Positions 30,265-50,101 of a stretch of 64,000 bases of DNA are shown here, in pieces. The notes beneath the pieces are model-generated. The model saw only the letters and a program-made list of their open reading frames with translations, was not told where the DNA came from and ran no database searches. Position 1 is the first letter of the stretch. The number at the start of each line of letters is the position of its first letter. The translations under genes were made by a program, and so were the position numbers. Origin of the DNA: Streptosporangium carneum (GTDB taxonomy: Bacteria > Actinomycetota > Actinomycetes > Streptosporangiales > Streptosporangiaceae); NCBI RefSeq assembly GCF_027922005.1, contig NZ_BSEV01000012.1:1-64000 (forward strand), given 5' to 3'.

Positions 30265-31710
30265 GTGCGCGACGTGACCGTCGTCCAGGCGACGCCGAGG
30301 GCCGTGCCCGTGAGCCGTCCGAGCGTGCCCGGCTGGGTCCGCCGGCACAGGGCGCGGGCTGTCGCCGCCGACATCGGCTCCGCCTCTCTCGCCGGGGCGC
30401 TCGCCCTGTTCGTTCGATTCGGCGAGGTTACTCCCTATGTGACCCCCTACGTGATGTTGAGCGCCGCGCTTCCCCTCGTCTGGGTCTGCGCGATCAGGGT
30501 CAACCGCGCCTACGAGCCCCGCCTGATCGGTCTCGGGGCCGAGGAGTTCCAGCGGATCTTCCAGTGCGGGTTCACGCTCACCGCCGCGCTGGCCATCGGG
30601 GCCTACGTGACCAAGACCGACGTGGCCAGGGGTTACGTGGTGCTGGCCGTTCCGCTGGCGACGGTGGTCACCATCCTCGCGAGGTACGGCCTGCGGCGCT
30701 CCCTGCACCGCAGGCGGGCCGCGGGGGCGTGCATGCGCAGGGTCGTGGCGGTCGGCCACCGCGCCGCGATCGTCGACCTGGTCCGCCGTTTCCGCAGGGA
30801 GCCCTACCACGGCATGGAGGTCGTCGGCGTCTGCATGCCCTACGACGGCATGGGAGACGTGGAGGGCGTGCCCGTCCTGGGTGGCATGTCCGACGTCCCG
30901 CTCGTGGTCGCCCAGCTCTCCGCCGACACCGTGGCGGTGCTGGCCTGTCCGGAGATGGACGGGGTCGCGCTGCGGCGTCTCGCCTGGCGTCTTGAGCGGA
31001 CCGCGACCGACCTGGTGGTCGCCCCGGCGCTGATGGAGGTGGCGGGGCCCCGGATCACGATCCGTCCCGCGGCCGGGCTTCCGCTGCTGCACGTCGACCA
31101 TCCCGAGCTCGCGGGTCTGCGCCAGCTGCTCAAGAACCTCTTCGACCGCGTCGGGGCGGGGCTGCTGCTGGTCGCCCTGGCGCCGCTGTTCGCCGTGCTG
31201 GCCGTGGCCGTGCGCGCCTCGAGCCCGGGTCCGGTGTTCTTCCGCCAGAGGCGGGTCGGCAGGGACGGGGCCGAGTTCACGATCTACAAGTTCCGGACGA
31301 TGGCCGTCGACGCCGAGCGGCGCAGGGCCGACCTCGCCGGTGACGGGCGGAGCATGCTGTTCAAGATCCGGAATGACCCGCGCATCACTCCCCTGGGCGC
31401 CCGGCTGCGACGTCACTCCCTGGACGAGCTGCCGCAGCTGATCAACGTGGTGTTCGGTCAGATGTCGCTGGTCGGTCCGAGGCCGCCGCTGCCCGAGGAG
31501 GTCGCCAGATACGGTGACGATGTCCGGCGCAGGCTGTTGGTCAAGCCGGGCATGACAGGCCTGTGGCAAGTGAGTGGGCGGTCTGACCTCTCTTGGGAGG
31601 AATCTGTACGGTTAGACCTGCGTTATGTGGAGAACTGGTCCCTGACACTGGACCTGCAGATCCTGTGGAAGACCTGGTCGGCTGTCGCGCGAGGGGCTGG
31701 AGCATATTGA
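30265..31710 (+). CDS. Polyprenyl-phosphate sugar-1-P transferase (WbaP/CpsE-like), polysaccharide initiation
   Basis: The 481-aa protein has four or five N-terminal TM segments, a nucleotide-binding-like middle domain, another TM hairpin (LLLVALAPLFAVLAVAVRASS), and a C-terminal catalytic domain: GPVFFRQRRVGRDGAEFTIYKFRTM, RRHSLDELPQLINV, MSLVGPRPPLPEE, KPGMTGLWQVSGRS. This family transfers a sugar-1-phosphate (often Gal or Glc) to undecaprenyl phosphate to start an exopolysaccharide. GTG at 30265 has AGGGGGAG upstream. Its stop overlaps the cysQ start (TGATG), tying glycan initiation to PAPS turnover in one transcript. Confidence 0.93.
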   Translation: MRDVTVVQATPRAVPVSRPSVPGWVRRHRARAVAADIGSASLAGALALFVRFGEVTPYVTPYVMLSAALPLVWVCAIRVNRAYEPRLIGLGAEEFQRIFQCGFTLTAALAIGAYVTKTDVARGYVVLAVPLATVVTILARYGLRRSLHRRRAAGACMRRVVAVGHRAAIVDLVRRFRREPYHGMEVVGVCMPYDGMGDVEGVPVLGGMSDVPLVVAQLSADTVAVLACPEMDGVALRRLAWRLERTATDLVVAPALMEVAGPRITIRPAAGLPLLHVDHPELAGLRQLLKNLFDRVGAGLLLVALAPLFAVLAVAVRASSPGPVFFRQRRVGRDGAEFTIYKFRTMAVDAERRRADLAGDGRSMLFKIRNDPRITPLGARLRRHSLDELPQLINVVFGQMSLVGPRPPLPEEVARYGDDVRRRLLVKPGMTGLWQVSGRSDLSWEESVRLDLRYVENWSLTLDLQILWKTWSAVARGAGAY

Positions 31711-32477
31711 TGACGATTCGCGACGATCACATTCTCGCCGCGAACCTGGCGACCGAGGCGGGCGAAAGACTCCTCGCGCTGCGTGAGAAGACGGGGTTCG
31801 ACGACCCGTCCGCGCTCCGCGCCGAGGGCGACACCGCCTCCCACCTGTTTCTGATGGAGGCGCTGACGGCCTCACGCCCAGGTGACAGTGTGCTGTCCGA
31901 GGAGGCGACCCAGGCGGAGCGTCTCGATCCCCGCCGCCTCACGGCCGAGCGCGTGTGGATCGTCGACCCGCTGGACGGCACCCGCGAGTTCGCCGAGGAG
32001 GGGCGCGCCGACTGGGCGGTCCACGTGGCGCTCTGGGAGCGCGGCGCGCTGACCGCCGGAGCGGTCGCGCTGCCCGCCGCGGGCAGGACGCTCTCGACCC
32101 TCGAACCCCCCGTGTTGCCCGAGCTCAGGGCGGGCGCCAGGCCGCGGATCGCGGTCAGCAGGACCAGGCCGCCCGAGTTCGTCAGGGAACTGGCCGACCT
32201 CGTGGGCGCCGACCTGGTGCCGATCGGCTCGGCGGGCGCCAAGATCTCCGCTGTCCTCACCGGACAGGTCGAGGCCTACGTGCACGCGGGCGGCCAGTAC
32301 GAATGGGACTCCGCCGCCCCGGTGGCCGTCGCGCTCGCCTCCGGAGCCCATGCCAGCCGCGTCGACGGTTCTCCCCTGACCTACAACCAGGGCGACCCCT
32401 CGCTGCCGGATATCCTTGTTTCCCTACCGGGACTGGCGCCGACGTTGCTCGCCGGAATCCGGGATCTCCACCGATAA
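31710..32477 (+). CDS. cysQ: 3'(2'),5'-bisphosphate nucleotidase (CysQ)
   Basis: The protein is 255 aa from ATG at 31710. It belongs to the lithium-sensitive inositol-phosphatase superfamily: VLSEEA gives the first metal Glu, VDPLDGTREFAEE is the DPxDG(T/S) motif, and QYEWDSAAPVAVA has the last metal Asp. CysQ converts PAP, the by-product of sulfotransferases, to AMP (and can act on PAPS). It shares one base with the upstream sugar-transferase stop and is followed by cysD/cysN. The context supports recycling of PAP for the sulfotransferases nearby. Confidence 0.92.
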   Translation: MTIRDDHILAANLATEAGERLLALREKTGFDDPSALRAEGDTASHLFLMEALTASRPGDSVLSEEATQAERLDPRRLTAERVWIVDPLDGTREFAEEGRADWAVHVALWERGALTAGAVALPAAGRTLSTLEPPVLPELRAGARPRIAVSRTRPPEFVRELADLVGADLVPIGSAGAKISAVLTGQVEAYVHAGGQYEWDSAAPVAVALASGAHASRVDGSPLTYNQGDPSLPDILVSLPGLAPTLLAGIRDLHR

Positions 32478-32496
32478 TCCCCGCTAGGAGAGTCAG

Positions 32497-33411
32497 ATGC
32501 TTCAGCGCGACTACACCACGTCGCAGCTCGATGTCCTCGAGGCAGAGGCCATTCACATCATGCGTGAGGTCGCGGCTGAGTTCGAGCGCCCCTGTCTGCT
32601 CTTCTCCGGCGGGAAGGACTCCATCGTCATGCTCCGCATCGCGGAGAAGGCGTTCTGGCCCGCGCCGATCCCGTTCCCGCTGATGCACGTCGACACCGGG
32701 CACAACTTCGCCGAGGTCATCGAGTTCCGCGACCGCAGGGCGGCGGAGCTGGGCGCCCGTCTCGTCGTGGCGAGCGTGCAGGACTCCATCGACGCCGGGC
32801 GCGTGGTCGAGGAGACGGGGCGCAGGGCCTCCCGCAACCGGCTGCAGACCACCACCCTGCTGGACGCGATCGAGGACAACGAGTACGACGCCGTGTTCGG
32901 CGGAGCCCGCCGCGACGAGGAGAAGGCCCGCGCCAAGGAGCGGGTGTTCTCCTTCCGCGACGACTTCGGCCAGTGGGACCCGAAGAACCAGCGCCCCGAG
33001 CTGTGGAACCTCTACAACTCGCGGATCCGCAAGGGCGAGCACATCCGGGTGTTCCCGCTGTCCAACTGGACCGAGCTCGACATCTGGGACTACATCCGCC
33101 GCGAGGGCATCGAGATCCCGTCGATCTACTACGCCCACACGCGCAAGGTGTTCGAGCGCGACGGCATGCTGCTGGCCGACAGCGAGTTCATCACCCGCGA
33201 CGAGGACGAGCAGCTCGTGGAGATGACGGTCCGCTACCGCACGGTGGGCGACGTGACCTGCACGGGCGCGGTGCAGTCCGCCGCCGCGACGGTCGAGGAG
33301 ATCATCGACGAGATCGCCGCGACCCGGCTCACCGAACGCGGCGCGACCCGCGCCGACGACCGGGCCTCCGAGGCGTCGATGGAAGACCGCAAGCGGGAGG
33401 GATACTTCTAG
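32497..33411 (+). CDS. cysD: Sulfate adenylyltransferase subunit 2 (ATP sulfurylase, PP-loop)
   Basis: The 304-aa subunit forms APS from sulfate and ATP with CysN. The PP-loop FSGGKDSIVML lies near residue 33; HVDTGHNFAEVIEFRD, FGGARRDEEKARAKER and RVFPLSNWTELDIWDYI are family motifs. AGGAGAG lies upstream of the ATG. It follows cysQ by 19 bp and precedes cysN after an unusual 193-bp spacer. With no APS/PAPS reductase nearby, sulfation rather than reduction is the likely sink. Confidence 0.96.
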   Translation: MLQRDYTTSQLDVLEAEAIHIMREVAAEFERPCLLFSGGKDSIVMLRIAEKAFWPAPIPFPLMHVDTGHNFAEVIEFRDRRAAELGARLVVASVQDSIDAGRVVEETGRRASRNRLQTTTLLDAIEDNEYDAVFGGARRDEEKARAKERVFSFRDDFGQWDPKNQRPELWNLYNSRIRKGEHIRVFPLSNWTELDIWDYIRREGIEIPSIYYAHTRKVFERDGMLLADSEFITRDEDEQLVEMTVRYRTVGDVTCTGAVQSAAATVEEIIDEIAATRLTERGATRADDRASEASMEDRKREGYF

Positions 33412-33421
33412 TGCGTGACGT

Positions 33422-33604: not shown

Positions 33605-34867
33605 ATGGACATCCTTCGCTTTGCCACGGCGGGAAGCGTCGACGACGGAAAGTCGACCCTCATCGGGCGGCTGCTCTTCGACTCCAAGGCCATCTTCGAA
33701 GACCAGCTCGAGGCCGTCGAGCGCACCTCCCGCGACCGCGGCACCGACTACACCGACCTGTCGCTGCTCACCGACGGCCTGCGGGCCGAGCGGGAGCAGG
33801 GCATCACCATCGACGTGGCCTACCGCTACTTCGCCACGCCCAAGCGCAAGTTCATCATCGCCGACACCCCGGGGCACATCCAGTACACCCGGAACATGGT
33901 CACCGGCGCCTCCACCGCGGACCTGGCGATCGTCCTGATCGACGCGCGCAAGGGCGTGCTGGAGCAGTCGCGGCGGCACGCCTTCCTGACCACGCTGCTG
34001 CGGGTGCCGCACCTGGTGCTGGCGGTCAACAAGATGGACCTGGTCGACTACTCCCAGGAGCGGTTCGAGGAGATCCGTGAGGAGTTCACCGCGTTCGCCT
34101 CCAAGCTGAACGCCCCCGACCTGACGTTCATCCCGATCTCCGCGCTGCACGGCGACAACGTGGTCTCCCGTTCGGAGAACATGCCGTGGTACAACGGCTC
34201 CTCGCTGCTGCACCACCTCGAGCACCTGCACATCGCCTCCGACCGGAACCTGGTCGACGTCCGCTTCCCGGTGCAGTACGTCATCAGGCCGCAGCGGGCC
34301 ACCGACCCGGCCTTCCACGACTACCGCGGCTACGCGGGCCAGGTCGCGGGCGGCGTGCTGAAGCCCGGCGACGAGGTGATGCACCTGCCCTCGGGGCTGA
34401 CCACGCGCATCGCCTCGATCGACACCTACGACGGCCCGGTGGACGAGGCGTTCCCGCCGATGGCGGTGACCCTCCGCCTCGAGGACGACATCGACATCTC
34501 CCGCGGCGACATGATCTGCCGTCCGAACAACCAGCCGCACGCCGCCCAGGAACTCGAGGCGATGGTCTGCTGGATGACCGACGCGAGCAAGCTCAGCCCG
34601 CGCACCAAGCTGACCATCAAGCAGACCACCCGCACGGCCCGTGCGCTGGTCCGCGACCTGCACTACCGCCTTGACGTCAACACCCTGCACCGCGACGAGT
34701 CGGCCCAGTCGCTCAGCCTGAACGAGATCGGCCGCGTCTCGCTCCGCGTGACCCAGCCCCTGTTCGTGGACGACTACGCGAGAAACCGCCTCACCGGCGG
34801 CTTCATCCTCGTGGACGAGGCCACCAACAACACCGTCGGCGCCGGGATGATCGTCGAAGCGCGGTAG
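33605..34867 (+). CDS. cysN: Sulfate adenylyltransferase subunit 1 (GTPase)
   Basis: The protein is 420 aa from ATG at 33605. It is an EF-Tu-like GTPase that drives APS formation by CysD. G1 is GSVDDGKSTLIGRLL, the switch region is EREQGITIDVAYRYF, G3 DTPGH, G4 NKMD. Domains II and III follow, and there is no fused APS-kinase domain; the length matches stand-alone CysN. APS kinase is supplied by a separate gene at 48065. An extended hairpin follows, closing the transcript. Confidence 0.96.
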   Translation: MDILRFATAGSVDDGKSTLIGRLLFDSKAIFEDQLEAVERTSRDRGTDYTDLSLLTDGLRAEREQGITIDVAYRYFATPKRKFIIADTPGHIQYTRNMVTGASTADLAIVLIDARKGVLEQSRRHAFLTTLLRVPHLVLAVNKMDLVDYSQERFEEIREEFTAFASKLNAPDLTFIPISALHGDNVVSRSENMPWYNGSSLLHHLEHLHIASDRNLVDVRFPVQYVIRPQRATDPAFHDYRGYAGQVAGGVLKPGDEVMHLPSGLTTRIASIDTYDGPVDEAFPPMAVTLRLEDDIDISRGDMICRPNNQPHAAQELEAMVCWMTDASKLSPRTKLTIKQTTRTARALVRDLHYRLDVNTLHRDESAQSLSLNEIGRVSLRVTQPLFVDDYARNRLTGGFILVDEATNNTVGAGMIVEAR

Positions 34868-35113: not shown

Positions 35114-36079
35114 GTGCCTGTGTCTGATAGTCCGTCCCCCGCCCGGGTCGTCTTCCTGGGGGGCCTCGGCCGTAGCGGGACCACGCTGCTGGAGCGGCTC
35201 CTCGGTGAGGTGCCCGGCGTCGCGCCGCTCGGCGAGGTCGTTCACCTCTGGGCCAGAGGCGTGCTGGCGGACGAGGACTGCGGATGTCACGAGCCGTTCG
35301 GCACATGTCCGTTCTGGCACAAGGTGGGGGAACGCGCCTTCGGCGGATGGTCGCCGGAGCTCGCCCACCGGGTCCTCGCGCTCGGGCGGAGGGTCGACCG
35401 CACCCGTCGGATCCTCACCCTGGCCCAACTCCTGGCCGAGGAGCGGATCGGCGCCGCCGGGTGGCCGTCGCCGCGGACCGCCGAGCTGGGCGAGTACGTC
35501 GCCGCGCACCGTCGCCTGTACGACGCGGCGGGCGAGGTCGCCGACTGCCCGGTCGTGGTGGACTCCAGCAAACACGCCTCCCTGGCCTTCTGCCTGGCGG
35601 CGGCCGGGGTCGACGTCCACGTCGTGCACGTCGTCCGTGACCCCAGGGCGGTCGCGCACTCCTGGGACAGGCGGGTCGTGCGCCCCGAGGACGGCTCCCC
35701 GATGACCCGCTGGTCACCGGCCCGCACCTCGCTGCACTGGGTGGCCCAGAACCTCAGCCTGGAGCTCCTGGCCCGCAGGGGCGTCCCCGTCACCAGGGTC
35801 CGCTACGAGGACCTCCTCCACGCCCCGGCGGACACCCTCAGAGGCCTGCTGGGCAGGATCGGCCTGCCTCCCCGCCTCGACTTCCTGGCCGACGGGCAGG
35901 CCCGCCTCTCCCGGACGCACACGGTCTCCGGCAATCCCATGCGTTTCACGGTCGGCACGGTCGGGCTGGTCTCCGACGACGCGTGGCGCACCGCGGCTCC
36001 GGCCAGGCACCGACGCCTGGTCACCACGATGACCTGGCCGCTGATGATCAAGTACGGCTATCGCGGGAGGCTCGCGTGA
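35114..36079 (+). CDS. PAPS-dependent sulfotransferase (first of three)
   Basis: The 321-aa cytosolic protein has the 5'-phosphosulfate loop FLGGLGRSGTTLLERLL near residue 13 and the 3'-phosphate motif HVVRDPRAVAHSWDR near residue 175, both required for PAPS binding. Several Cys (DCGCHEPFGTCPF) sit in the variable substrate region. The GTG start at 35114 has AAGGA upstream; GTG 35120 is possible. Its TGA overlaps the next GTG (GTGA), so it is coupled to a GT2 and a WecG-like transferase, pointing to a glycan or glycolipid acceptor. The acceptor itself cannot be read from the sequence. Confidence 0.9.
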   Translation: MPVSDSPSPARVVFLGGLGRSGTTLLERLLGEVPGVAPLGEVVHLWARGVLADEDCGCHEPFGTCPFWHKVGERAFGGWSPELAHRVLALGRRVDRTRRILTLAQLLAEERIGAAGWPSPRTAELGEYVAAHRRLYDAAGEVADCPVVVDSSKHASLAFCLAAAGVDVHVVHVVRDPRAVAHSWDRRVVRPEDGSPMTRWSPARTSLHWVAQNLSLELLARRGVPVTRVRYEDLLHAPADTLRGLLGRIGLPPRLDFLADGQARLSRTHTVSGNPMRFTVGTVGLVSDDAWRTAAPARHRRLVTTMTWPLMIKYGYRGRLA

Positions 36080-37017
36080 GTCCATCGGTGGGCGTGGTCA
36101 TTCCCACGAAGGGGCGACGGCCGGAACACCTGCGCGCCGCCGTGCTCGCCGCACTCGACCAGGACCACCCCGGCGCCGTCGAGGTCGTCGTCGTCGTGGA
36201 CGGCGCGGCCCTCGCCCCGGTCATCGACCAGGTGGCCGACCTGCTGGTCAGCGGGGCCATGGCGGCGGGCGAGACGCAGCCGCTCCCGCGTCGGGTCAGG
36301 GTGGTGGCCAACCGCCTCAGTCCCGGTCTGCCGGGCGCCCGCAACACGGGCATCGCGGCACTCGACACCGACCTGGTCGCCTTCTGCGACGACGACGACC
36401 TGTGGTCGCAGGGAAAGCTCGACGCCCAGATCGCGGCGCTGCTGGCCGAGCCGGGCGCGGAGTTCTCCAGCTGCGCCATCGAGGTCGAGTACGGCTCACG
36501 CCGCGTCCCGCGCCTGGCGGGCACCTCCGAGATCACCCGAGCCCACCTGTTGCGCTCGCGCATGGTGATGGCGCACTCCTCGACGTTCCTGTTCAGGCGT
36601 GGCGCGTTCTGGGTGGACGAGAGCGCGCCGAACGGCCAGAACGAGGACTGGGACCTGGCGCTGCGCGCCGCGGCCCGCCGTCCCATCGTGCACGTCGACC
36701 GCCCGCTGGCGCGCGTCCGCTGGGGCGGCTCGCTGTACAGCACCCGCTGGGCCGACCGGATCGCCGGGCTGGAGTGGATGCTCGCCCGGCACCCCGATCT
36801 GGCCGTGGATCCGCGCGGCGCGGCGCGGGTCTACGGTCAGCTCGCCTTCCACCACGCGGCCCTGGGCCGCAGGAGGGAGGCGGGGCGCTGGGCGTGGCGG
36901 GCGTTCGCCGCACGGCGCGGCGAGCCCCGCGCGCCCATCGCGCTCGCTGTGGCGGCGGGCCTGGTGTCGGCCCAGACGGTGCTCAGCGCCCTGCACCACC
37001 GTGGGCACGGCATCTGA
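36076..37017 (+). CDS. GT2-family glycosyltransferase
   Basis: The protein is 313 aa from GTG at 36076, overlapping the sulfotransferase stop by four bases. GT-A fold: VGVVIPTKGRRPEHLRAAV at the start, LPGARNTGIAALDTDLVAF, and the DxD region FCDDDDLWS; NGQNEDWDLALRAA is the usual acceptor-side ED motif. There is no TM segment, so it is a peripheral cytoplasmic enzyme adding a sugar to the lipid-linked repeat. Its stop shares one base with the next start (TGATG). Confidence 0.92.
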   Translation: MSPSVGVVIPTKGRRPEHLRAAVLAALDQDHPGAVEVVVVVDGAALAPVIDQVADLLVSGAMAAGETQPLPRRVRVVANRLSPGLPGARNTGIAALDTDLVAFCDDDDLWSQGKLDAQIAALLAEPGAEFSSCAIEVEYGSRRVPRLAGTSEITRAHLLRSRMVMAHSSTFLFRRGAFWVDESAPNGQNEDWDLALRAAARRPIVHVDRPLARVRWGGSLYSTRWADRIAGLEWMLARHPDLAVDPRGAARVYGQLAFHHAALGRRREAGRWAWRAFAARRGEPRAPIALAVAAGLVSAQTVLSALHHRGHGI

Positions 37018-37880
37018 TGGCGCTCAGAACCGCCAGGGAGGCCACCGACGCCACGCCCGGGACCCCACGTCCTGAACCGCGCCCTGAACCTCACCCTGAC
37101 AAGGCGACCCGCAGGAGGCTGCGCCGCAGGGTGCGGGTGGCCGGTCTCGCCGTCGACCCGATGACCGAGGGCGAGGTGGTCGACCACGTGGTCGCCGCGT
37201 TGAAGCGCGGTGAGGGCGGCCATCTGGTCACTCCGAACGTGGACATCTGCTGGGCCGCCGCCCGTGACCCCGAGGCACGCGAAATCATCGAGCGCGCCGA
37301 CCTCGTGGTCGCGGACGGCATGCCGCTGGTGTGGGCGGCGAAACTGCTCGGCACCCCCGTGCCGGGCCGTGTCACCGGCGCGGACCTGGTCTGGTCCCTG
37401 TCCGAGGCCGCCGCCTTCTACCACCATCCCGTCTATCTGCTGGGCGGTCCGCCGGGAGTGGCCAGGCAGGCGGCCGACAGGCTCAGGGAGCGCCATCCCC
37501 GCCTGCTCGTCGTGGGCGCGGACGCCCCGCCGCACGGGTTCGAGACCACCCAGGAGGGCTACGCGAGGGTCAAGGACGCCCTGCTGGCCGCCGCGCCCCG
37601 GCTGGTCTTCGTCGGCCTCGGCTTTCCCAAACAGGACCGCCTCATCGCACGCCTCCGAGAGGACCTGCCCACCACCTGGTTCGTCGGCTGCGGCGCGGCG
37701 ATCACGTTCGCGGCGGGCGCGGTGCGCAGAGCGCCGATGTGGATGCGGCGAGCCGGGCTGGAGTGGCTCTTCCGGCTGCTCAACGAGCCAGGCAGGCTGG
37801 CCCGCCGCTACCTGCTGCACGACCTGCCGTTCGCCCTCGTCCTGCTCACAACCTGCCTGTTCCGTCGCCTGTTCTCCTGA
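37017..37880 (+). CDS. WecG/TagA/CpsF-family glycosyltransferase (GT26)
   Basis: The protein is 287 aa from ATG at 37017. Family motifs: VTPNVDICWAAARDPEAR, ADLVVADGMPLVWAAKLLG with the catalytic Asp, PVYLLGGPPGVARQAA, and FVGLGFPKQDRLI followed by FVGCGAAITFAAG and a C-terminal membrane-anchoring helix RYLLHDLPFALVLL. The family adds ManNAc, ManNAcA or related sugars to a lipid-linked primer. A short Pro/Glu/Arg N-terminal extension (~35 residues) is unusual. It ends a four-gene run of overlapping genes. Confidence 0.93.
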   Translation: MALRTAREATDATPGTPRPEPRPEPHPDKATRRRLRRRVRVAGLAVDPMTEGEVVDHVVAALKRGEGGHLVTPNVDICWAAARDPEAREIIERADLVVADGMPLVWAAKLLGTPVPGRVTGADLVWSLSEAAAFYHHPVYLLGGPPGVARQAADRLRERHPRLLVVGADAPPHGFETTQEGYARVKDALLAAAPRLVFVGLGFPKQDRLIARLREDLPTTWFVGCGAAITFAAGAVRRAPMWMRRAGLEWLFRLLNEPGRLARRYLLHDLPFALVLLTTCLFRRLFS

Positions 37881-38905: not shown

Positions 38906-38936
38906 CGGGCCCGTCCTCGTGTCCGCCCCACGTCGG

Positions 38937-43099: not shown

Positions 43100-44388
43100 G
43101 CGGTCCCGCTCACCATCGAGTTCCTCCACAGGAGCGCGAATGAGATCAGGTACAGGCTGAGCGGCGTGACCAGCCCGTCGTAGACGAACATGTAGAGCAG
43201 GGTCAGGATCATCACCAGGACTCCGGCCATGCCGATCGGGCTCCGGTCACGCCAGTGGCGGCGGATCGCCCCGATGAAGAACGCCACGTAGAGCCCGGCC
43301 CCGACGAAGCCCTGAGTGATCATCAGATGCCAGAGTTGGCCGTCGCTGCCCAGCGGAGGGTGGCCGCAGCCGTCGCACCAGTCGGTCCTGCCGGTGGTGA
43401 TCGTGCGGTGGTTGCCCGTCGCGTTGCGGGTGTTGCCGTAGCCGATGATCGGCGAGGTGCGCGCCGCCGCGACGGTCGCCGACACCGTGAAGGCGCGGAT
43501 GTCGTTGCTGTGTGGGTTGTCCAGCCGCTGGGCCACCATGGTCCGCAGCGGGCTGAGAAGGAACACCAGCGCCCCCGCGGCGACGGCGGAGCAGGCCAGG
43601 AGCCGGGCCCGTGTGCCCAGGCGCAGCAGGAGATAGACGGCGGCGACCCCGAGGCCGATCCACAGGCCCCTGTTCAGGGAGTAGACGACGGGGACCGAGG
43701 CCAGCGCGAGCAGCGGGGCCACGGCCAGGCGGCTGCGCCGCCCGCCGTACACCCACCAGCCGACCACGAACCAGACGAGCAGCACCGAGAGGTTGCCGCC
43801 CCAGGCGTTGGCCCACTCGAACGGGGCCTCGGGGCGCGGGGAGGCGTGGCCGAGGACCTTCTGCACCTGCGCGGAGGTCGGGTGGATCAGGTTGTGGACG
43901 AAGGCGTTCTCACTGACCCAGCGGGGCAGCAGCAGCTCGACCGGCGAGGTGAAACCGGCGTGCGGGGCGAGCACCCCCAGCAGGCCGCCCGCGACGGTCG
44001 TGACGAACAGCGCGCCGAGCATGCGCGTCAGGGTGAGCTGGGGAAGCTCTCGCTCGGTCAGATTGCCCAGGTAGAGCAGCATGATCGTCATCGAGACGTA
44101 GAGGAACAGGCGCATCAGGTAGCCGATCACCCGCCCCGCGCCGAAGTCGCCGTAGGTGTGCGGCGGCATCTCGCCGAGCATGGACGCGCTGACCAGGTAG
44201 CCCGCCAGCAGCAACAGCCAGAGCCCGAAGCCTCGGGGGGTCCGGACGGGCCGTCGCCGCCACAGGACCAGCGCCATCCACGGGGCCAGCACGATCACCG
44301 AGAGCCCGCCGAAGCCGAGCGCCCACCAGAACGGGTAACCCACGAGCAGCGCGGCGATCGGCCAGGCAGCCCGGTCCAGGCCTCTCAC
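43096..44388 (-). CDS. O-antigen ligase/polymerase (Wzy/WaaL-like) membrane protein
   Basis: The 430-aa protein has ten or more TM segments and a large outer loop (about residues 160-210 and 300-360) containing SLNRGLWIGLG, the Wzy_C-type motif, and conserved Arg/His such as RTDWCDGCGHPPLGSDGQLWHLMI. The family joins lipid-linked repeat units in the periplasm or outside the membrane. It overlaps both neighbours by four bases: GTGA with the Wzz-like gene and ATGA with the APH-like gene. Together they form a tight three-gene operon. Confidence 0.88.
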   Translation of the reverse strand: MRGLDRAAWPIAALLVGYPFWWALGFGGLSVIVLAPWMALVLWRRRPVRTPRGFGLWLLLLAGYLVSASMLGEMPPHTYGDFGAGRVIGYLMRLFLYVSMTIMLLYLGNLTERELPQLTLTRMLGALFVTTVAGGLLGVLAPHAGFTSPVELLLPRWVSENAFVHNLIHPTSAQVQKVLGHASPRPEAPFEWANAWGGNLSVLLVWFVVGWWVYGGRRSRLAVAPLLALASVPVVYSLNRGLWIGLGVAAVYLLLRLGTRARLLACSAVAAGALVFLLSPLRTMVAQRLDNPHSNDIRAFTVSATVAAARTSPIIGYGNTRNATGNHRTITTGRTDWCDGCGHPPLGSDGQLWHLMITQGFVGAGLYVAFFIGAIRRHWRDRSPIGMAGVLVMILTLLYMFVYDGLVTPLSLYLISFALLWRNSMVSGTA

Positions 44389-45617
44389 GGAGGGAAGACC
44401 CTCCTGCCGCCTGCCGGGGACGTCCCGCTGACCGGCGTGGCGGTCATGCCTCCGCCCACGACGGGCCCGCCGTTCTGGGGGGTGAGCGCCGAGCCGGGGA
44501 GAGCCCCGAAGGGCGGCTCGGGGAACCCCCGCTCTGCCGGAAGCCGGTTGTCTCCCTGTCTCTCCTCTTCCCGCGCACCCGTGGTCTGTGCTCCCTCCCG
44601 GGGCGTGAGAAGCGCGCCGATCACCGGGACCCCCTGCCGCTTGAGCTTGCGCACGGCCCGCGCCACCCCGCGCGACGACCTTCCCGGCACGCCGACCAGG
44701 AGCACCGCCCCCTGCCTGCCCGCCAGGGCGCCGGCTCCCTCGCCGCCGGGGATCGCGCGGACGGCTCCCGCGAGAGCGTCGATCGCGGTCACGAACCTCC
44801 TGTCCCGGGGCTCGCCGAGCGCGCGGGGGCGGTCGCGGAGCCAGGCGAGGCCCACTCCGGACAGGAGGCCGAGCATCAGGCCGCTGCCCAGGTAGAGGGG
44901 CGGGCTGGGGAGACTCGGCGCGGTGGGGACGGCGGCCTCGCTGATCACGGAGCCGGGGGTGACGGCGACGGTTCTCAGCGCGTCGTACTTGACGGTGAGG
45001 TTGTAGACCTGGCGGCTGAGAACGTTCTGCCGTTGCAGGGCCATGGTCCGTTCCGCCGTGCCTTTGGCCAGTCCCGGCAGCGCGGCGACGACGGTCGCCA
45101 GGCTCGCGTTGACCTGCTTCAGCTTGGTCAGGAGCGTCTTGAGCTGGATGTCCAGCGCCCGGGTCGTGGCCTCGCGCCGGTTGGCGAGGTAGGCCTGGGC
45201 GTAGGCGCCGGCGCCCGTCGCCGCCGACCTCGGGTCGGCGGCGGTGTAGGAGATCTCCAGGACCGAGGTGTTGGGCGGAACGGAGACCTCCGCGGGACCG
45301 GGAGCGCTCCCGAGCGCGACCCCGGCCTTTCTGGCGACGATCGCGGAGCGGGCGATCTGGGCCTCCGTGTCGAGGTTGAGCGCCTCACGCTGCCGGTTGG
45401 TGACCTGGTTGGTCTGCTCCTGCAGGCCTGTCGAGGTCACCAGCACCTGGGTCGAGGCGGTGTAGGCGGGCGGGGTGAGGCGGAGCGCGGCGGCGCCCGA
45501 GCCCACTCCGGCGGCGATGAGGAGCAGGACGGTCGGCCATCTGCGCCGGAGAAGGGACGCGTAATCCGTCAGGTCTCCGCCGGAGCGGCGGACGGGGATG
45601 TCCGGCGACGGGTTCAT
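44385..45617 (-). CDS. Wzz-type chain-length determinant with degenerate kinase-like tail
   Basis: The 410-aa protein begins with a Wzz domain: cytoplasmic DLTDYASLLRRRWPTVLLLI, first TM, an outer coiled-coil region (residues ~55-230, with LNLDTEAQIARSAIVA), then LPSPPLYLGSGLMLGLLSGVGLAWL as the second TM with the usual Pro-rich lead. The remaining ~150 residues resemble the cytoplasmic part of a BY-kinase (AVLLVGVPGRSSRGVARAV) but lack Walker A Gly-Lys-Ser/Thr and a tyrosine cluster. It should control glycan length without kinase activity. ATG at 45617 heads the operon. Confidence 0.88.
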   Translation of the reverse strand: MNPSPDIPVRRSGGDLTDYASLLRRRWPTVLLLIAAGVGSGAAALRLTPPAYTASTQVLVTSTGLQEQTNQVTNRQREALNLDTEAQIARSAIVARKAGVALGSAPGPAEVSVPPNTSVLEISYTAADPRSAATGAGAYAQAYLANRREATTRALDIQLKTLLTKLKQVNASLATVVAALPGLAKGTAERTMALQRQNVLSRQVYNLTVKYDALRTVAVTPGSVISEAAVPTAPSLPSPPLYLGSGLMLGLLSGVGLAWLRDRPRALGEPRDRRFVTAIDALAGAVRAIPGGEGAGALAGRQGAVLLVGVPGRSSRGVARAVRKLKRQGVPVIGALLTPREGAQTTGAREEERQGDNRLPAERGFPEPPFGALPGSALTPQNGGPVVGGGMTATPVSGTSPAGGRRVFPP

Positions 45618-45916
45618 GCGTTGTGGGTCCCTTTCGGGCGGTTTCGACGTGGGGGAGTAGGCGATTCCGAACCCTAGGAACTATAGATCTGCTCACCGTT
45701 TTCCCCATCCGATACGCAAGATTTTCATGAGAACCATGATGGCGATCATGGGGAAATATTTGCCATTTATCCGATATCTCACCTGTGGGGCGTCGGCGCT
45801 CGCGGGGAGTCCCCCGGTGAACCGGCGAAGTCCGTGACGCGGCACGTCCAGCCGATGGGAAGGTGGAGTCCGGTGAAGACGGACAGGCGTGCGAGTGGAC
45901 CATCTGGGGGGAATCA
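45618..45916. promoter_or_regulatory. Divergent regulatory region of the Wzz operon and the GH26-like gene
   Basis: This 299-bp gap has an AT-rich core at 45700-45785. CCATGAT (45734-45740) and ATCATGG (45745-45751) form a perfect 7-bp inverted repeat with spacer GGCG. Outside it, TTCCCCAT (45701-45708) and ATGGGGAA (45748-45755) are also complementary. ATCGGATAAA occurs near 45770 on the minus strand and at the start of the GH26-like gene on the plus strand. A shared operator is likely. Confidence 0.5.
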
Positions 45917-47098
45917 GTGCATCGGATAAACGTCGCAGAAAAGTGGATTTCCCGGAAGGTGACAATCGCCGTAACGGGTTTCGCCTTGGTGCTGGGAACG
46001 GGAGCGTGCGCTCGGTTTCACGGCGTTTCCCGTGATTTCCCCGGGCCTGCCGCTGACTCTCCCCGGCACGGCGCGGACTCCTCGGTCGGAGGAGGCGAAT
46101 CCCCCGGGCGGGGTGTGGATCCTCCCGGGCACACCGCGGGCTCCCGGGGGCGGGCGGTGAGCCCCTCCTGCGGGGTCGCCGCCAAACTCGTTCCCGTCTG
46201 CGGAGCCTGGTGGGGGATCGCTCCCGAGGTCTTCACGGGCAGGCCTCCCCGGCGGGCGCTGGCGCGCGCGGAGCGGCGCATGGGGCGCAGGGCGGACATC
46301 GTGCACCTCTACCACCGGGGATCGGAGCTCTTCCCGACCTCCGAGGAACGGCTGATCGCGCGCGACCCCGGCGGGCGCAGGCTCCTGCTGATCAACTGGA
46401 AGCCGTCCTTCGACCACACCTGGGCGGAGATCGCCGGGGGCGCGCTGGACGGGCGCATCGACCGGCTGGCCGCCCACATCGTCAGGAGCTTCCCCGAGAG
46501 GTTCTTCCTCACCGTGCACCACGAGCCCGAGGACGACGTACGGGAGAGCCCCGGCTCGGGGATGACCGCGGACGACTACGCCGCGATGTTCCGCCACGTG
46601 GTGCTCCGCCTGCGCCGCGGGGGTGTGGACAACGCGGTCACGGTCATGACCTACATGGGCGCGCCGAACTGGGCGGCCAGGCCCTGGTTCGACAGGCTCT
46701 ATCCCGGTGACGACGTGGTCGACTGGGTGGCCGCGGACCCCTACGTCGACGACAGGGTCCAGACCTTCGGCGGCCTGGTCGACAAGACCCGCGAGGAGTT
46801 CGCGGACTGGCCGGGGTTCTACAGCTGGGCGCGGTCGCGCCGCCCGGCCAAGCCCGTCATGGTCGCCGAGTGGGGCGTGTTCGAGCGTCCAGAAGGCCCA
46901 GGCTTCAAGGAGTCGTTCTTCTCCGCCGTGCGCGGGGAGATGCGCGCCTACCCCCGCATCAAGGCGCTGGTCTACTTCGACTCACCGCGGGCCCCTCGGG
47001 GGGACACCCGTTTCGACACCACTCCCGGTGGTCTGAAGGCCTTCGGGGACCTCGCCAGCGACCCCTACCTGAGCGCCGCCGCGGTTCCACAGCAGTGA
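45917..47098 (+). CDS. Secreted GH26-like (endo-mannanase-type) glycoside hydrolase
   Basis: The protein is 393 aa from GTG at 45917 with GGGGGGAA upstream. An N-terminal hydrophobic segment (KVTIAVTGFALVLGTGACA) is a signal peptide, perhaps with a non-standard lipobox. A ~60-residue Pro/Gly/Ser linker follows. The catalytic barrel shows FLTVHHEPEDD (acid/base Glu region) and MVAEWGVFE (nucleophile Glu), the spacing of GH26 and related clan A enzymes. DYAAMFRHVVLRLR is also GH26-like. It is divergent from the Wzz operon and may trim or release the glycan. Its 3' end overlaps the convergent permease gene by 117 bp. Confidence 0.78.
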   Translation: MHRINVAEKWISRKVTIAVTGFALVLGTGACARFHGVSRDFPGPAADSPRHGADSSVGGGESPGRGVDPPGHTAGSRGRAVSPSCGVAAKLVPVCGAWWGIAPEVFTGRPPRRALARAERRMGRRADIVHLYHRGSELFPTSEERLIARDPGGRRLLLINWKPSFDHTWAEIAGGALDGRIDRLAAHIVRSFPERFFLTVHHEPEDDVRESPGSGMTADDYAAMFRHVVLRLRRGGVDNAVTVMTYMGAPNWAARPWFDRLYPGDDVVDWVAADPYVDDRVQTFGGLVDKTREEFADWPGFYSWARSRRPAKPVMVAEWGVFERPEGPGFKESFFSAVRGEMRAYPRIKALVYFDSPRAPRGDTRFDTTPGGLKAFGDLASDPYLSAAAVPQQ

Positions 47099-47953
47099 CC
47101 ACGCCGCCACGCCCGCCGCGACCGCTCCGGCGAGGATCCAGAGCATGGCCGTGTTGCCGACCCCCAGGAGCTTCAGAGCCGAGGCCAGCAGCACCACCGC
47201 GAGCAGCACGCGGATGACGCCGCCGGGCGCCCACGCGGAGATCCGGGCGCCCAGGTAGACGCCGGGGATCGAGCCGACCAGCAGCGAGGTGGTGACGGCG
47301 AGTTGGAAGTCGCCGAACAGCAGGTGCCCCAGGGCCGCGGACGCGACCAGCGGCACGGCCTGCACCAGGTCGGTGCCGACGAGCTGGTTGGCCTTCAGCG
47401 CGGGGTAGAGCGCGAGCAGCGCCACGATGATGAGCGATCCCGAGCCGACGGACGAGATGCCGACGACCAGGCCGCCGATCATACCGACCAGTAAGGTCGG
47501 AATTGGGCGCACGACGATGTCGTCCAGACCCGCGGCGGCGACCTCCTGACGCCCGGCGGTCGCGTCCCCGCGCGACATCCAGGCCTTGGCTCCCAGCCCG
47601 GCCACGGCCAGCAGCAGGGCGACGCCCAGGGCGTACTTGATCGTCTCCTGGACCTGCTCGCCGTCCCCGAACGCCCTGGCGACGAACACCCCGCAGAAGG
47701 CCGCAGGCACCGACCCCGCGCACAGCCAGCCGACCAGCCGCAGGTTGACGGTGCCGCGCCGCAGGTGCACGAACCCGCCGACGGGCTTCATCACGGCGGA
47801 GGCGACGAGATCGCTGGAGACGGCCGCCAGGGGCGGCACGTTGAAGAACAGCATCATCATCGGCGTCATCAGCGCGCCGCCGCCCATGCCGGTCAGCCCG
47901 ACGATGATCGCGACGAAGAAGGATCCGGCGGCGAGGGGGATGTCGATGGCCAT
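46982..47953 (-). CDS. TauE/SafE-family sulfite/sulfate permease
   Basis: The 323-aa protein has eight to nine TM segments and the family's repeated glycine motifs (VGLTGMGGGALMTPMMM in the first half, VGISSVGSGSLIIVALLA in the second). Members move sulfite, organosulfonates or related anions. Placed beside APS kinase, it could bring in sulfate/sulfite or remove excess. The last ~35 residues are a hydrophilic tail translated antisense to the end of the GH26-like gene; the tail looks non-essential. ATG at 47953. Confidence 0.85.
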   Translation of the reverse strand: MAIDIPLAAGSFFVAIIVGLTGMGGGALMTPMMMLFFNVPPLAAVSSDLVASAVMKPVGGFVHLRRGTVNLRLVGWLCAGSVPAAFCGVFVARAFGDGEQVQETIKYALGVALLLAVAGLGAKAWMSRGDATAGRQEVAAAGLDDIVVRPIPTLLVGMIGGLVVGISSVGSGSLIIVALLALYPALKANQLVGTDLVQAVPLVASAALGHLLFGDFQLAVTTSLLVGSIPGVYLGARISAWAPGGVIRVLLAVVLLASALKLLGVGNTAMLWILAGAVAAGVAAWSLLWNRGGAQVGVAGEVPEGLQTTGSGVETGVPPRGPR

Positions 47954-48064
47954 CGGTCGTTCACCATTTCTCGAGCACTGCGTGGGCGGCGGACGTGCCT
48001 TGACGCCCCTTCGAACGAAAGCCGGCCCTTCCCGGCGCCGGCGGACCCGGTCTTCCGTTCCGGA

Positions 48065-49303
48065 TCAGCGGACCCAACCTCCCTGGACCAGCGGGTCCAG
48101 CACCTGGTGGACCGCCCGGTCCACGCTGATCGAGGTGGTGTCGATGACCAGGTCGGCGTCGTCCGGCTCCTCGTACGGGTCGGAGACGCCGGTGAACTCG
48201 GGGATGAGGCCCGCCCGCGCCTTGGCGTAGAGCCCCTTGCGGTCGCGGCGCTCGCACTCCTCGAGCGGTGTGGCCACGTGGACGAGCAGGAAGTCGGCTC
48301 CGACGGCCTCGACCATCGCCCTGACCTCGTCGCGGGTCGCGGCGTACGGCGCGATCGGCGCGCAGATCGCCAGCCCGCCGTGTCTGGCGGCCTCGGCGGC
48401 GACGAACCCGATCCGCCGGATGTTGAGGTCGCGGTCCTCCTTGGAGAAGGTCAGCCCCGCCGACAGCAGCCGCCGGACGACGTCGCCGTCGAGATAGGTG
48501 ACCGTACGGCTGCCGCGCTCGAGCAGCGCGTCGCGCAGCCCCCTGGCGACGGTCGACTTGCCCGAGCCGGACAGGCCGGTGAAGAAGACCACGAGGCCGC
48601 GCCGGTGCGGCGGCCCGGGAAGCGTCACGGGCTCGGGGCCCGCCAGGTGCTCCGTCGCGCCGTAGGCCCCGGCCACGTGCTCGCGCAACTCCAGGTCGAT
48701 GCTGGGGTCCTCTCGCGGCGCGAGCGGGACCACCGCCACGAGCGTGCCCTCGGGCAGCCGCTCACGCGCCCTGAGCGCGGCGCGCACCACCGCGGGACCC
48801 TCCTCCCCGAACGCCAGCGGCAGCAGCAGGATCGCGGCGTCCAGCTCCTCGGCGGTCGCCCTGACCTCGTCGAGGTCGTCCAGCGGCCCGCGCATGGTGA
48901 CCGCCAGGGTGTCGCGGCCCGCAAGCTCCTTGCGGATCTCGGCGGGGGTGAGACGGAGCCGGGCGAAGGGACCGTGCTCGGGGGCGTCGAGCCCCTCGAC
49001 GGGACCGGCGACGAAACCGTCGCGCCGATCGGTGACCGTGAGCACGGCCAGCGCGGCGCCCTCGGGGTCGCGCAGGGTGATCCGGTCGCCGGGGACGGCG
49101 GGGTGGTCGTCGGGCAGCGTGAAGGTGACGGGCGCCGGCCAGCGCGTGCCGTCGGCCAGGGCGCCGTGCGCGTCGACGGCGTGCGCGTCGGCCGAACTCA
49201 GGAAGCCGGTCAGCGGCTGGAAGGCGCCGGAGAGCAGCAACTCGAGGTCGGCCAGCTCACGGGCGTCGGGGGTCCACTCGAAAGAGGCCGTCATCTGCTC
49301 CAC
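48065..49303 (-). CDS. cysC: APS kinase fused to a degenerate ATP-sulfurylase domain
   Basis: The protein is 412 aa from GTG at 49303 (ATG 49294 possible). The C-terminal ~180 residues are a complete APS kinase: FFTGLSGSGKSTVARGL, LDGDVVRRLLSAGLTFSKEDRDLNIRRIGF, and ERRDRKGLYAKARAGLI. It converts APS to PAPS. The N-terminal ~215 residues resemble the PUA-like and start of the catalytic domain of Sat (SGAFQPLTGFLS), but the QxRNPxHRAHE nucleotide motif is absent. This half probably cannot make APS; CysDN would do so. The upstream gap contains the short palindrome CGACT-T-AGTCG (49313-49323). Confidence 0.88.
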   Translation of the reverse strand: MEQMTASFEWTPDARELADLELLLSGAFQPLTGFLSSADAHAVDAHGALADGTRWPAPVTFTLPDDHPAVPGDRITLRDPEGAALAVLTVTDRRDGFVAGPVEGLDAPEHGPFARLRLTPAEIRKELAGRDTLAVTMRGPLDDLDEVRATAEELDAAILLLPLAFGEEGPAVVRAALRARERLPEGTLVAVVPLAPREDPSIDLELREHVAGAYGATEHLAGPEPVTLPGPPHRRGLVVFFTGLSGSGKSTVARGLRDALLERGSRTVTYLDGDVVRRLLSAGLTFSKEDRDLNIRRIGFVAAEAARHGGLAICAPIAPYAATRDEVRAMVEAVGADFLLVHVATPLEECERRDRKGLYAKARAGLIPEFTGVSDPYEEPDDADLVIDTTSISVDRAVHQVLDPLVQGGWVR

Positions 49304-49372
49304 AATCCCGATCGACTTAGTCGGATTTCATTACCTTACCTACTCCAGTTCTCCCACACCAACCCCGGGGCC

Positions 49373-50101
49373 TCATATCAGACGGGCGAAATGGCTCTGC
49401 GGCTTGCGCACCACCATGATGATCTCGTCATGCGAGGCGGACCGTCGTCCCCTCGAGGCCGTCTCGACCGCCAGGCAGGCGAGGCGGGCGAGCCCGCCCC
49501 TCGGTCCGTGCAGCGCGGGCCCGCTCCTCGCCGACACGTCGTCGGTCACCATCAGGCCGCGCGTCAGGCAGAAGGAGTGCATCCCCTCACGAGAGGTGAG
49601 CTCCCCGTAGAAGGGGGTCAGCGGGCCGACGGCGCCCTCCGGCGCGAAGCCGTGCCACAGCAGCCGTCGCAGCGCGGGAGGCAGCAGGCGGTCGCACGTG
49701 CCGTACGCCGAGGCCCGGTCGCGCATCCGCAGCAGCAGCAGACCGCCGGGGCGCAACCCGGTGAGCAGACGGTCGAGCACCAGCTCCGCGTGCTCGATGC
49801 GCTCCAGCAGGAACGGCACGTGGACGATGTCGAACGCGCGGGGCGGCACCGGCACCGAGCGCAGGTCCCCCAGCGTCCAGGAGTCGAGATCCTTGCGCGC
49901 GGACGTGCTCGCCCGCAGCGCGGGGAGGTCCTCGTCGATGCCGGTGACCCGCGCCTCGATCCGCTCCAGGTCCAGCGGATCCGGCCATCCGCACCCGGCG
50001 ACCAGGATGTCGAGCCGCCGGCCCGACTGCCCCGTCCACTGCTCGCGGACCCGTCGGCTGAATATGTCGTCTCGCGAGACGACCGACCGTACCTCAGACA
50101 T
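49373..50101 (-). CDS. Class I SAM-dependent methyltransferase
   Basis: The protein is 242 aa from ATG at 50101. The SAM loop is DILVAGCGWPDPLDLE, followed by VTGIDED, LGDLRSVPVPPRAFDIVHVPFLLERIEH, and LRPGGLLLLRMRD. The substrate cannot be predicted; in this neighbourhood a sugar or glycolipid O-methyltransferase is possible. TACTGT ends seven bases before the ATG with no Shine-Dalgarno, so it may be leaderless. It is divergent from mfd and marks the edge of the accessory region. The longer frame beyond 50101 is not coding. Confidence 0.82.
   Translation of the reverse strand: MSEVRSVVSRDDIFSRRVREQWTGQSGRRLDILVAGCGWPDPLDLERIEARVTGIDEDLPALRASTSARKDLDSWTLGDLRSVPVPPRAFDIVHVPFLLERIEHAELVLDRLLTGLRPGGLLLLRMRDRASAYGTCDRLLPPALRRLLWHGFAPEGAVGPLTPFYGELTSREGMHSFCLTRGLMVTDDVSARSGPALHGPRGGLARLACLAVETASRGRRSASHDEIIMVVRKPQSHFARLI

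Follow-up and report, generated by a model that had tools for sequence, protein, structure and literature searches.

A 17-gene locus between pth and mfd

The genome of Streptosporangium carneum (9.84 Mb) carries on contig C12, within the 64-kb window analysed here (the whole stretch of DNA under study), a group of 17 genes at positions 30265-50101, for which an original prediction had proposed the synthesis of a sulfated extracellular polysaccharide. The locus sits between the housekeeping genes pth (28945-29541) and mfd (50196-53783), in a housekeeping run that also includes a gene for an NTP-transferase/hexapeptide protein taken as glmU, prs and L25. The plus strand encodes a WbaP-like initiator, a CysQ-like phosphatase, CysD, CysN, a first sulfotransferase (ST1), a GT2 and a WecG glycosyltransferase, as well as a GH26-like protein whose gene lies between those of Wzz and TauE. 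The minus strand encodes a second sulfotransferase (ST2), Wzx, a third sulfotransferase (ST3), an APH-like kinase, Wzy and Wzz, then TauE, an adenosine 5'-phosphosulfate (APS) kinase and a methyltransferase. The genes and the matches on which their assignments are based are as follows.

30265..31710, plus strand: wbaP, WbaP/exopolysaccharide (EPS)-type initiating sugar-1-phosphate transferase (Pfam Bac_transf, E 2.8e-67; TIGR03025 above cut-off)
31710..32477, plus strand: cysQ, CysQ-like 3'-phosphoadenosine 5'-phosphate (PAP) phosphatase (Inositol_P; best model TIGR01331 CysQ, 106 bits, below the 228.8-bit cut-off)
32497..33411, plus strand: cysD, sulfate adenylyltransferase small subunit (NF003587/TIGR02039 above cut-off)
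33605..34867, plus strand: cysN, sulfate adenylyltransferase GTPase subunit, no fused CysC (TIGR02034 above cut-off)
35114..36079, plus strand: ST1 sulfotransferase, WpsB homologue (Sulfotransfer_3, E 1.2e-13; GxGRSGTT and RDPR motifs)
36076..37017, plus strand: GT2 glycosyltransferase, WpsA homologue (Glycos_transf_2, E 1.3e-15, longer frame)
37017..37880, plus strand: WecG/TagA/CpsF glycosyltransferase, WpsC homologue (Glyco_tran_WecG, E 1.2e-55, longer frame)
37952..38905, minus strand: ST2 sulfotransferase (Sulfotransfer_3, E 4.7e-12)
38937..40547, minus strand: Wzx-type flippase, WpsG homologue (Polysacc_synt_3, 25.2 bits, cut-off 23; MatE just under its own cut-off)
40921..41781, minus strand: ST3 sulfotransferase, WpsH homologue (Sulfotransfer_3/_1)
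42035..43096, minus strand: APH-like kinase, WpsI homologue (conserved residues, fold search)
43096..44388, minus strand: Wzy-type polymerase, WpsJ homologue (Wzy_C, E 1.7e-7, 31.6 bits, cut-off 31.7)
44385..45617, minus strand: Wzz-type chain-length protein, WpsK homologue (Wzz, E 3e-8, above cut-off)
45863..47098, plus strand: GH26-like hydrolase (phmmer to CtLic26A, E 2.9e-13)
46982..47953, minus strand: TauE/SafE permease, candidate sulfur-anion transporter (TauE, E 4.7e-38)
48065..49303, minus strand: cysC, APS kinase with a degenerate ATP-sulfurylase-like N-terminal domain (APS_kinase, E 5e-56; PUA_2)
49373..50101, minus strand: S-adenosylmethionine (SAM)-dependent methyltransferase adjoining mfd (Methyltransf_11, longer frame)

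The likely ATG of CysN is at 33605, the TIGR02034 match beginning at residue 57 of a longer frame. Many of the genes are tightly packed. The wbaP and cysQ genes share one base (TGATG), as do GT2 and wecG, and the likely ATG of the kinase and the stop of wzy; ST1 and GT2 overlap by 4 bases (GTGA), wzz and wzy also by 4 bases, and tauE overlaps the 3' end of the GH26 gene. Each gene family named in the original prediction was recovered in its place by profile search (GH26 by phmmer), and both overlaps on which it had drawn, that of cysQ with the initiator gene by one base and that of a sulfotransferase with the GT2 gene, were seen at the junction sequences. Its gene list was incomplete, lacking the APH-like kinase and the methyltransferase, and it had recognised the APS kinase without the fusion to a degenerate ATP-sulfurylase-like N-terminal domain. 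No WhiG-like promoter with fewer than three mismatches to the consensus was present in the intergenic gaps of the locus, and no sigma-70-like promoter was found in 29500-49490, where 0.6 were expected.

Relation to the wps-1 cluster of Actinoplanes missouriensis

The locus was compared with wps-1 of A. missouriensis, which comprises AMIS_7280-7380 plus AMIS_7390 (Tezuka and Ohnishi 2026, Applied and Environmental Microbiology, PMC13390465). Its genes are given there as GT2, sulfotransferase, WecG, DUF4262, GH26, methyltransferase and Wzx, then a heparan-sulfate-type sulfotransferase, a kinase-like protein, Wzy and Wzz, followed by AMIS_7390 (PMC13390465). The cluster is predicted by the authors to make a sulfated sporangium matrix polysaccharide, and its mutants, including those in the WpsH sulfotransferase and AMIS_7390, are described as defective in sporangia and spore release (PMC13390465). 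WpsH is needed like the polymerase gene, the wpsH mutant having squashed sporangia, and the harm caused by loss of AMIS_7390 is called unexpected (PMC13390465).

Homologues of all eight of WpsA, B, C, G, H, I, J and K are present in the S. carneum locus. The pairwise comparisons were made with locus L177 (genome G943), which we take to be wps-1 of A. missouriensis on the basis of an ST3 match at 785 kb and a gene order (GT2, ST1, wecG, GH26, wzx, ST3, kinase, wzy, wzz, cysC, GH26) that fits the published one; WpsD and WpsF were not picked out in L177. Identities of the eight proteins range from 37 to 58%: GT2 51%, ST1 52%, WecG 51%, ST3 58%, kinase 37%, Wzx 46% over 312 residues, Wzy 40% and Wzz 37%. 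That of the APS kinase domain reaches 65%. The 40% identity of Wzy backs an assignment that the profile search had left just under the cut-off. The order of GT2, ST1/WpsB, WecG, Wzx, ST3/WpsH, WpsI, Wzy, Wzz, APS kinase and GH26 corresponds between the two clusters, and an APS kinase gene lies next to the cluster in both. The S. carneum locus differs by its position between pth and mfd and by its additional WbaP, CysQ, CysDN, TauE and ST2 (best match of ST2 in L177, E 0.15), none of which has a credible match in L177; its methyltransferase also lacks an L177 match, and its GH26 protein is nearer to the product of the gene beyond AMIS_7390 (41%) than to WpsE (26%). DUF4262 (WpsD) was not among the profile matches of the S. 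carneum locus, in which no search by name was made. Judged by identity and gene order, the S. carneum cluster is homologous to wps-1 and appears as a fuller variant with a built-in supply of 3'-phosphoadenosine 5'-phosphosulfate (PAPS).

Conservation of the locus within the family

Searches with WbaP and Mfd in 100 relatives gave the intervals used for locus comparison. The comparison at pth-mfd covered 53 genomes, namely 52 of the 61 of the family and G061; the fragmented drafts G025, G028, G031, G033, G043, G049, G050, G055 and G060 fell outside it. Fifteen core genes were scored, that is, the genes of the locus other than tauE and GH26, with pth and mfd not counted. All 15 are present in 15 of the 16 Streptosporangium genomes, the exception being G001, in which wbaP is weak, and their order is the same wherever a single stretch spanned the locus. 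The gene grouping is thus beyond chance. Within the genus, TauE was undetected in 4 of 16 genomes and GH26 in 1 of 16, and the methyltransferase was detected in all 16.

In the family, wzx and wzy occur together at pth-mfd in 36 of the 53 genomes. All 36 carry at least one sulfotransferase gene (at least two in 35) as well as cysD and cysN; cysC was found in 30 of them within the stretch covered. Seven genomes (G020, G021, G024, G030, G032, G054 and G056) have cysD and cysN beside mfd without wzx or wzy. At family level, the dependence thus looks one-way, since the glycan genes come with the sulfation genes and not the reverse. ST3 and the kinase are retained in G024 and G056, which have no wzx or wzy at the locus.

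Some loci have a reduced content. In L064 (7763-8591), L067 (15385-16216) and L154 (9998-10829), ST3 and the kinase lie between mfd and cysN with no Wzx or Wzy match. L021 (G053, 6274-11918) keeps wbaP, ST1, ST3, the kinase and GH26 and gave no wzx, wzy or GT2 match; 5.6 kb between its ST3 and ST1 carry no assigned gene.

Association of ST3 with the polymerase across the class and phylum

A Wzy-centred search covered 394 genomes of the class, not chosen for sulfotransferases, of which 73 had a match. The ST3 and Wzy class samples (394 genomes each) were taken as identical, having been drawn by the same request and having listed identifiers that agree. ST3 was found within 12 kb of all 58 Wzy places of at least 200 bits, 23 of them outside the family, as against 7 of 12 places of 110-200 bits and none of 6 below 110 bits. 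Near relatives of this polymerase thus adjoin ST3 and distant ones do not. Close relatives of the glycan genes unaccompanied by a sulfotransferase gene, which would have spoken against the original prediction, were not seen either among these 58 Wzy places or among the 36 pth-mfd genomes. Conversely, 65 of the 76 ST3 places in the class sample have a Wzy match within 12 kb; the remaining 11 comprise G567, on a 6.6-kb contig, G056, without Wzy in the stretch covered, and nine places below 260 bits.

ST3 relatives occur in 67 of 394 class genomes and 24 of 396 phylum genomes, and in 130 of 150 Micromonosporaceae genomes (E 1e-30), many of the latter being weaker paralogues of about 40% identity. 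Of 539 candidate stretches in the genome collection, 513 encode ST3 relatives; the best 80 of these 513, which were retained, include Micromonospora, Geodermatophilus, Modestobacter, Blastococcus, Actinomadura, Nocardiopsis, Dactylosporangium, Catellatospora, Planomonospora and Phycicoccus. For ST3-centred counts we considered 152 places of at least 380 bits, 130 after removal of near-identical ones, 87 of which had 8 kb on both sides. These counts are selected for ST3, whereas the Wzy-centred and pth-mfd counts are free of that selection; as the genomes are related by descent, co-occurrence is given without p-values.

The 87 ST3 loci contain the kinase in all cases, wzy in 86, wzx in 85, wzz in 84, ST1 in 76, GH26 in 74 and GT2 in 72. 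The other genes are less frequent: WecG 43, cysC 38, cysN 30, cysD 27, wbaP 27, cysQ 24 and ST2 23. The initiator and the PAPS genes thus constitute a minority addition. Other Micromonosporaceae, beyond the Micromonospora loci considered below, have cysC inside the module and no cysDN in view (for example L145, L177 and L179). In the other classes of the phylum, ST3 is accompanied by the kinase, wzx and wzy in all five loci covered (L071, L074-L077). Taken together, the sequence associations show that, in many actinobacterial families, sulfotransferases apparently belong to the constant components of a single polysaccharide machinery. A metagenome-assembled genome of the Actinomycetota (L168) has three ST3-type genes after the kinase gene.

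The three sulfotransferases

ST1, ST2 and ST3 are three unlike Sulfotransfer_3 proteins. The PAPS-binding 5' motif is present in all three; the exact patterns used were found in 122 of 136 ST1-, 39 of 45 ST2- and 131 of 161 ST3-family open reading frames (ORFs; not deduplicated). The best PDB match of ST3 is 3rnl (E 5e-17), named only as a sulfotransferase, and heparan sulfate sulfotransferases make up 13 of its 14 PDB matches; these 3-O- and N-sulfotransferases span E 1e-13 to 2e-9, with 3-OST-3 at E 1e-13 and NDST at E 4e-11. Phmmer searches of the PDB with ST1 and with ST2 gave nothing at E 0.1. A hydropathy scan detected nothing membrane-like in ST2, ST3 or the kinase, and a single internal stretch in ST1.

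ST1 and GT2 lie within 150 bp of each other in 75 of 94 cases; wbaP and cysQ, on one strand, are equally close in 30 of 34. In the 87 ST3 loci, ST2 and WecG occur together in 22, WecG without ST2 in 21, ST2 without WecG in one (L089), and neither in 43. The distribution is nested, and a one-to-one dependence between WecG and ST2 was therefore rejected. Compared with wps-1, this third predicted sulfotransferase, found almost only with WecG, is new.

Sulfate activation and the supply of PAPS

Only one APS kinase was found in the S. carneum genome, cysC of the locus, and no Sat-type sulfurylase (PF01747) was matched in it. Two proteins of the PAPS_reduct family were found, the CysD of the locus, which is the sole CysD found, and a CysH on contig C19, beside a gene of the sulfite/nitrite-reductase family that no NCBIfam model names above cut-off. 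The original prediction had noted that no APS/PAPS or sulfite reductase is present; this holds for the cluster and fails for the genome, which has CysH and the sulfite/nitrite-reductase-type gene on C19. CysH scores 236.3 bits against the APS-reductase subfamily, narrowly above the 235.3 cut-off, and 172.2 bits against the PAPS-reductase model, below its 254.2 cut-off; it is also above the cut-off of two general models that bear the name phosphoadenylyl-sulfate reductase. The CC...CxxC cysteines present in CysH are characteristic of iron-sulfur APS reductases. The evidence that CysH is an APS-type reductase is good but not decisive. Since CysD is common to both routes, an APS-type CysH implies that the APS kinase is probably required for sulfation only and not for cysteine assimilation.

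The C-terminal part of CysC is a normal APS kinase. Its ATP-sulfurylase-like N-terminal part is shortened compared with PDB 3cr8 and reads RGPLDDLDE at the position of the catalytic His motif. None of 18 aligned CysC rows has HxxH at the sulfurylase site, and the P-loop and DGD motif are intact in all; [QM]xRxPxHxxH occurs in 0 of 77 CysC-family ORFs, and a bare HxxH anywhere in 8 of 77. An ATP-sulfurylase activity of the fused domain was rejected on the loss of this motif. CysC aligns with the kinase domain and part of the sulfurylase domain of bifunctional ATP sulfurylase/APS kinases (PRK05537, PDB 3cr8) and differs from them by its shortened N-terminal domain, its lost catalytic His motif and a score of 359.9 bits, below the 669-bit cut-off of PRK05537. 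PDB 23vk (500 residues), named adenylyl-sulfate kinase, may have a similar layout.

In G943 we also found a single APS kinase, at 790,776-791,237 inside L177, with a degenerate sulfurylase motif. If AMIS_7390 corresponds to this gene, as its place in the order indicates, a lost PAPS supply can explain the mutant phenotype; the simplest explanation is likely that the two Wps sulfotransferases are deprived of PAPS.

The notion of the cluster as a private PAPS factory was rejected, the sole CysD being shared with the CysH route and other sulfotransferases being encoded in the genome. Two strong Sulfotransfer_3 genes in tandem at G000:C13:177208-178850 (L190, L191) are another possible user of PAPS.

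Glycan assembly, kinase and hydrolase

Initiator, flippase, polymerase and co-polymerase, the set that defines a Wzx/Wzy-dependent pathway, are found together in the locus. The hydropathy scan gave 9 membrane-like segments for Wzx, 8 for Wzy, 8 for TauE and 4 for WbaP. WbaP is 80-88% identical in 13 of the 15 other members of the genus and 67-68% identical in G006, and a close match is lacking in G001; the initiator may thus have been replaced or have decayed in these two genomes. The wbaP match in the pth-cysQ interval of G001 (L189) reaches no more than 119 bits, and the other core genes are present. A low-complexity loop of about 55-60 residues in Wzx is coded by hexamer repeats (GGCACA, GGGCAT) at 40088-40264; it is missing from 16 of the 18 relative rows shown, and L010 and L034 have unlike inserts at the same place.

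The APH-like protein had no Pfam match, and phmmer of the PDB gave chance-level matches only. Its Lys114, Glu128, HGD, Asn257, Asp270 and Glu272 are invariant in 34 sequences, HGDxxxxN being present in 157 of 157 family ORFs, and its structural model (pLDDT 83) resembles fructosamine-3-kinase, APH(3') and WbdD in a fold search. It is predicted to be an active sugar or glycan kinase.

No Pfam family was reported for the GH26-like protein in the profile search. Both catalytic Glu align with those of CtLic26A, Glu221 being kept in 32 of 33 and Glu336 in 33 of 33 aligned rows. Its N-terminus is lipobox-like by eye, and the hydropathy scan showed no membrane-like segment. No LCP-type wall-ligase family was among the profile matches of the locus proteins.

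Two other features of the window deserve mention. A 712-codon ORF at 9883-12021 (plus strand) begins with a signal-like sequence and contains a long GPA/GPE/GPQ repeat resembling collagen, with a GC content of up to 80%. At 17977-22428, adjacent genes for a CYTH/CHAD protein, a Nudix/phosphatase protein and polyphosphate kinase apparently form a polyphosphate locus.

A predicted pathway for a sulfated surface polysaccharide

We conclude that the 17 genes quite probably constitute a single locus for the synthesis of a surface polysaccharide of wps-1 type, sulfated and dependent on Wzx/Wzy. The sequence evidence supports the identity of a sulfated-glycan locus well; sulfate on the polymer itself is a prediction. 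The proposal, already made in the original prediction, that PAPS produced at this locus serves to sulfate a Wzx/Wzy glycan gains support from the ST3-Wzy linkage, from the 36 pth-mfd genomes and from the published wps-1 homologue.

In the pathway that we propose, CysDN, the sole sulfate adenylyltransferase found in the genome, would make APS, which the distant CysH would draw into cysteine and CysC would turn into PAPS, the CysQ-like enzyme clearing PAP. WbaP, GT2 and WecG would build a lipid-linked unit of about three sugars. ST1 may sulfate the sugar added by GT2, because their genes are adjacent, and ST2 the sugar added by WecG, because it occurs almost only with WecG; ST3 may act on the core unit, and the kinase may phosphorylate or cap it. 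PAPS is cytosolic, so that sulfation most likely precedes flipping: the sulfated unit would be flipped by Wzx and polymerised outside by Wzy and Wzz, and the GH26 protein may trim the polymer. In Actinoplanes, the homologous cluster is required both to form sporangia and to release spores, which makes a polyanionic polymer in the envelope of aerial hyphae, spores or sporangia the most likely product; for Streptosporangium, we infer the spore or sporangium role from Actinoplanes.

Several observations weigh against this interpretation. Ten of the 87 ST3 loci have neither ST1 nor ST2, and 21 Micromonospora loci (L097-L117) have neither cysC nor cysDN in the stretch covered; together with the seven mfd loci without wzx or wzy, the latter mean that glycan and PAPS genes are not always linked. 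An APS kinase match was found in 43 of 44 genomes with the module (40 of the 65 class genomes with Wzy and ST3, plus 4 Micromonosporaceae genomes) as against 29 of 36 without it (two weak), making this a weak test of an enzyme that is common anyway. The PAPS genes are not exclusive to the cluster: the sole CysD must also serve assimilation, and three other contigs together carry four more Sulfotransfer_3 genes. The assignments of enzymes to sugars are based on co-occurrence, and L089 has ST2 without WecG in the 7 kb covered. The resemblance of the kinase is at the level of the fold (template modelling (TM) score about 0.2-0.55). Blastococcus and Phycicoccus are not known to form sporangia, and the module is present in both, so that a sporangium role cannot be general. 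In A. missouriensis, the wpsB mutant has sporangia of normal shape and releases about tenfold fewer spores, and sulfation of the polymer is, by the authors' own account, a prediction (PMC13390465).

Two other explanations retain some weight. In the first, cysQ, cysD, cysN and cysC would be ordinary assimilation genes that historically lay beside mfd and around which the glycan cluster grew; their link would be mostly positional, the sulfotransferases would still modify the glycan, and the idea of on-site PAPS supply would be partly right. The cysD and cysN genes standing beside mfd in seven genomes, the sole CysD that must feed CysH too and the Micromonospora loci with a glycan module and no PAPS genes in view all fit such a history. 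It is nevertheless rather unlikely: the APS kinase would be unneeded for assimilation with a CysH that looks APS-type, cysQ overlaps wbaP and stays close to it in most cases, and cysC is found in the module of L145, L177 and L179 where cysDN is not in view.

In the second, the product would be a wall-fixed sulfated cell-wall glycopolymer, a capsule or a short sulfated glycolipid rather than a free exopolysaccharide. The host is Gram-positive, a Wzx/Wzy polymer can be a capsule or a wall polymer, and the cluster has no release marker and only about three glycosyltransferases. We regard it as similarly doubtful, since the constancy of Wzy and Wzz in the ST3 loci favours a polymer, no LCP-type ligase appeared among the locus matches, and a sporangium matrix polymer has been proposed for Actinoplanes (PMC13390465). 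Finally, sulfotransferases that act on an unrelated small molecule or lipid as mere neighbours of the glycan genes are very improbable: although family names leave the acceptor unfixed and further sulfotransferase genes exist in the genome, ST3 is linked with Wzy, Wzx and the kinase across the class and in the five loci of other classes, its PDB matches are nearly all heparan sulfate sulfotransferases, and WpsH is required in Actinoplanes as the polymerase is (PMC13390465).

Comparison with other known systems

Animals, algae and cyanobacteria are the best-known sources of sulfated polysaccharides, and a few marine bacteria have been described as well. The xss cluster of Synechocystis sp. PCC 6803 likewise directs a Wzx/Wzy-dependent exopolysaccharide, synechan, with two unlike sulfotransferases in the cluster and measured sulfate, about 2 per 8 sugars; by its description it is set apart as cyanobacterial, with eight glycosyltransferases and its own regulators, and its main text has 0 occurrences of 'PAPS' and 'cysC' (PMC8205485). 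Sulfated capsular polysaccharides with genomic data are reported from Vibrio sp. KMM 8419 (PMC11641403) and Cobetia marina KMM 1449 (PMC11766843); they are alike by description, with mention of sulfotransferase, Wzx and Wzy, and come from Gram-negative marine hosts. Among actinomycetes, sulfate is reported in a Streptomyces exopolysaccharide (PMC9911575), and a sulfated polysaccharide is raised only as a possibility in the Actinoplanes paper (PMC13390465). No paper on a sulfated polysaccharide of Streptosporangium was among the matches listed in our literature searches. WbdD is an O-antigen chain-terminating kinase-methyltransferase. It resembles the locus kinase in fold (4ax8/4azt, ranks 7 and 8) and both belong to a polysaccharide pathway; it differs in that the resemblance is one of fold only, at a low TM score of 0.23-0.30, and in that the locus kinase has no fused methyltransferase.

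Implications

What is new here is the pairing of ST2 with WecG, the built-in PAPS supply and the recurrence of the module in many families. With AMIS_7390 matching the sole APS kinase found in the A. missouriensis genome, its loss should starve the sulfotransferases, so that sulfation could be tested with the existing mutants. More tentatively, the cluster may represent an ancient family of envelope polymers that resemble glycosaminoglycans, are both sulfated and phosphorylated and recur in many lineages of Actinomycetota, with a dedicated sulfotransferase for each sugar and a glycan kinase acting on the lipid-linked unit. If so, such polymers would serve as spore or sporangium matrices in filamentous genera and as capsules in others, and the supply of PAPS would be a control point of sporulation.

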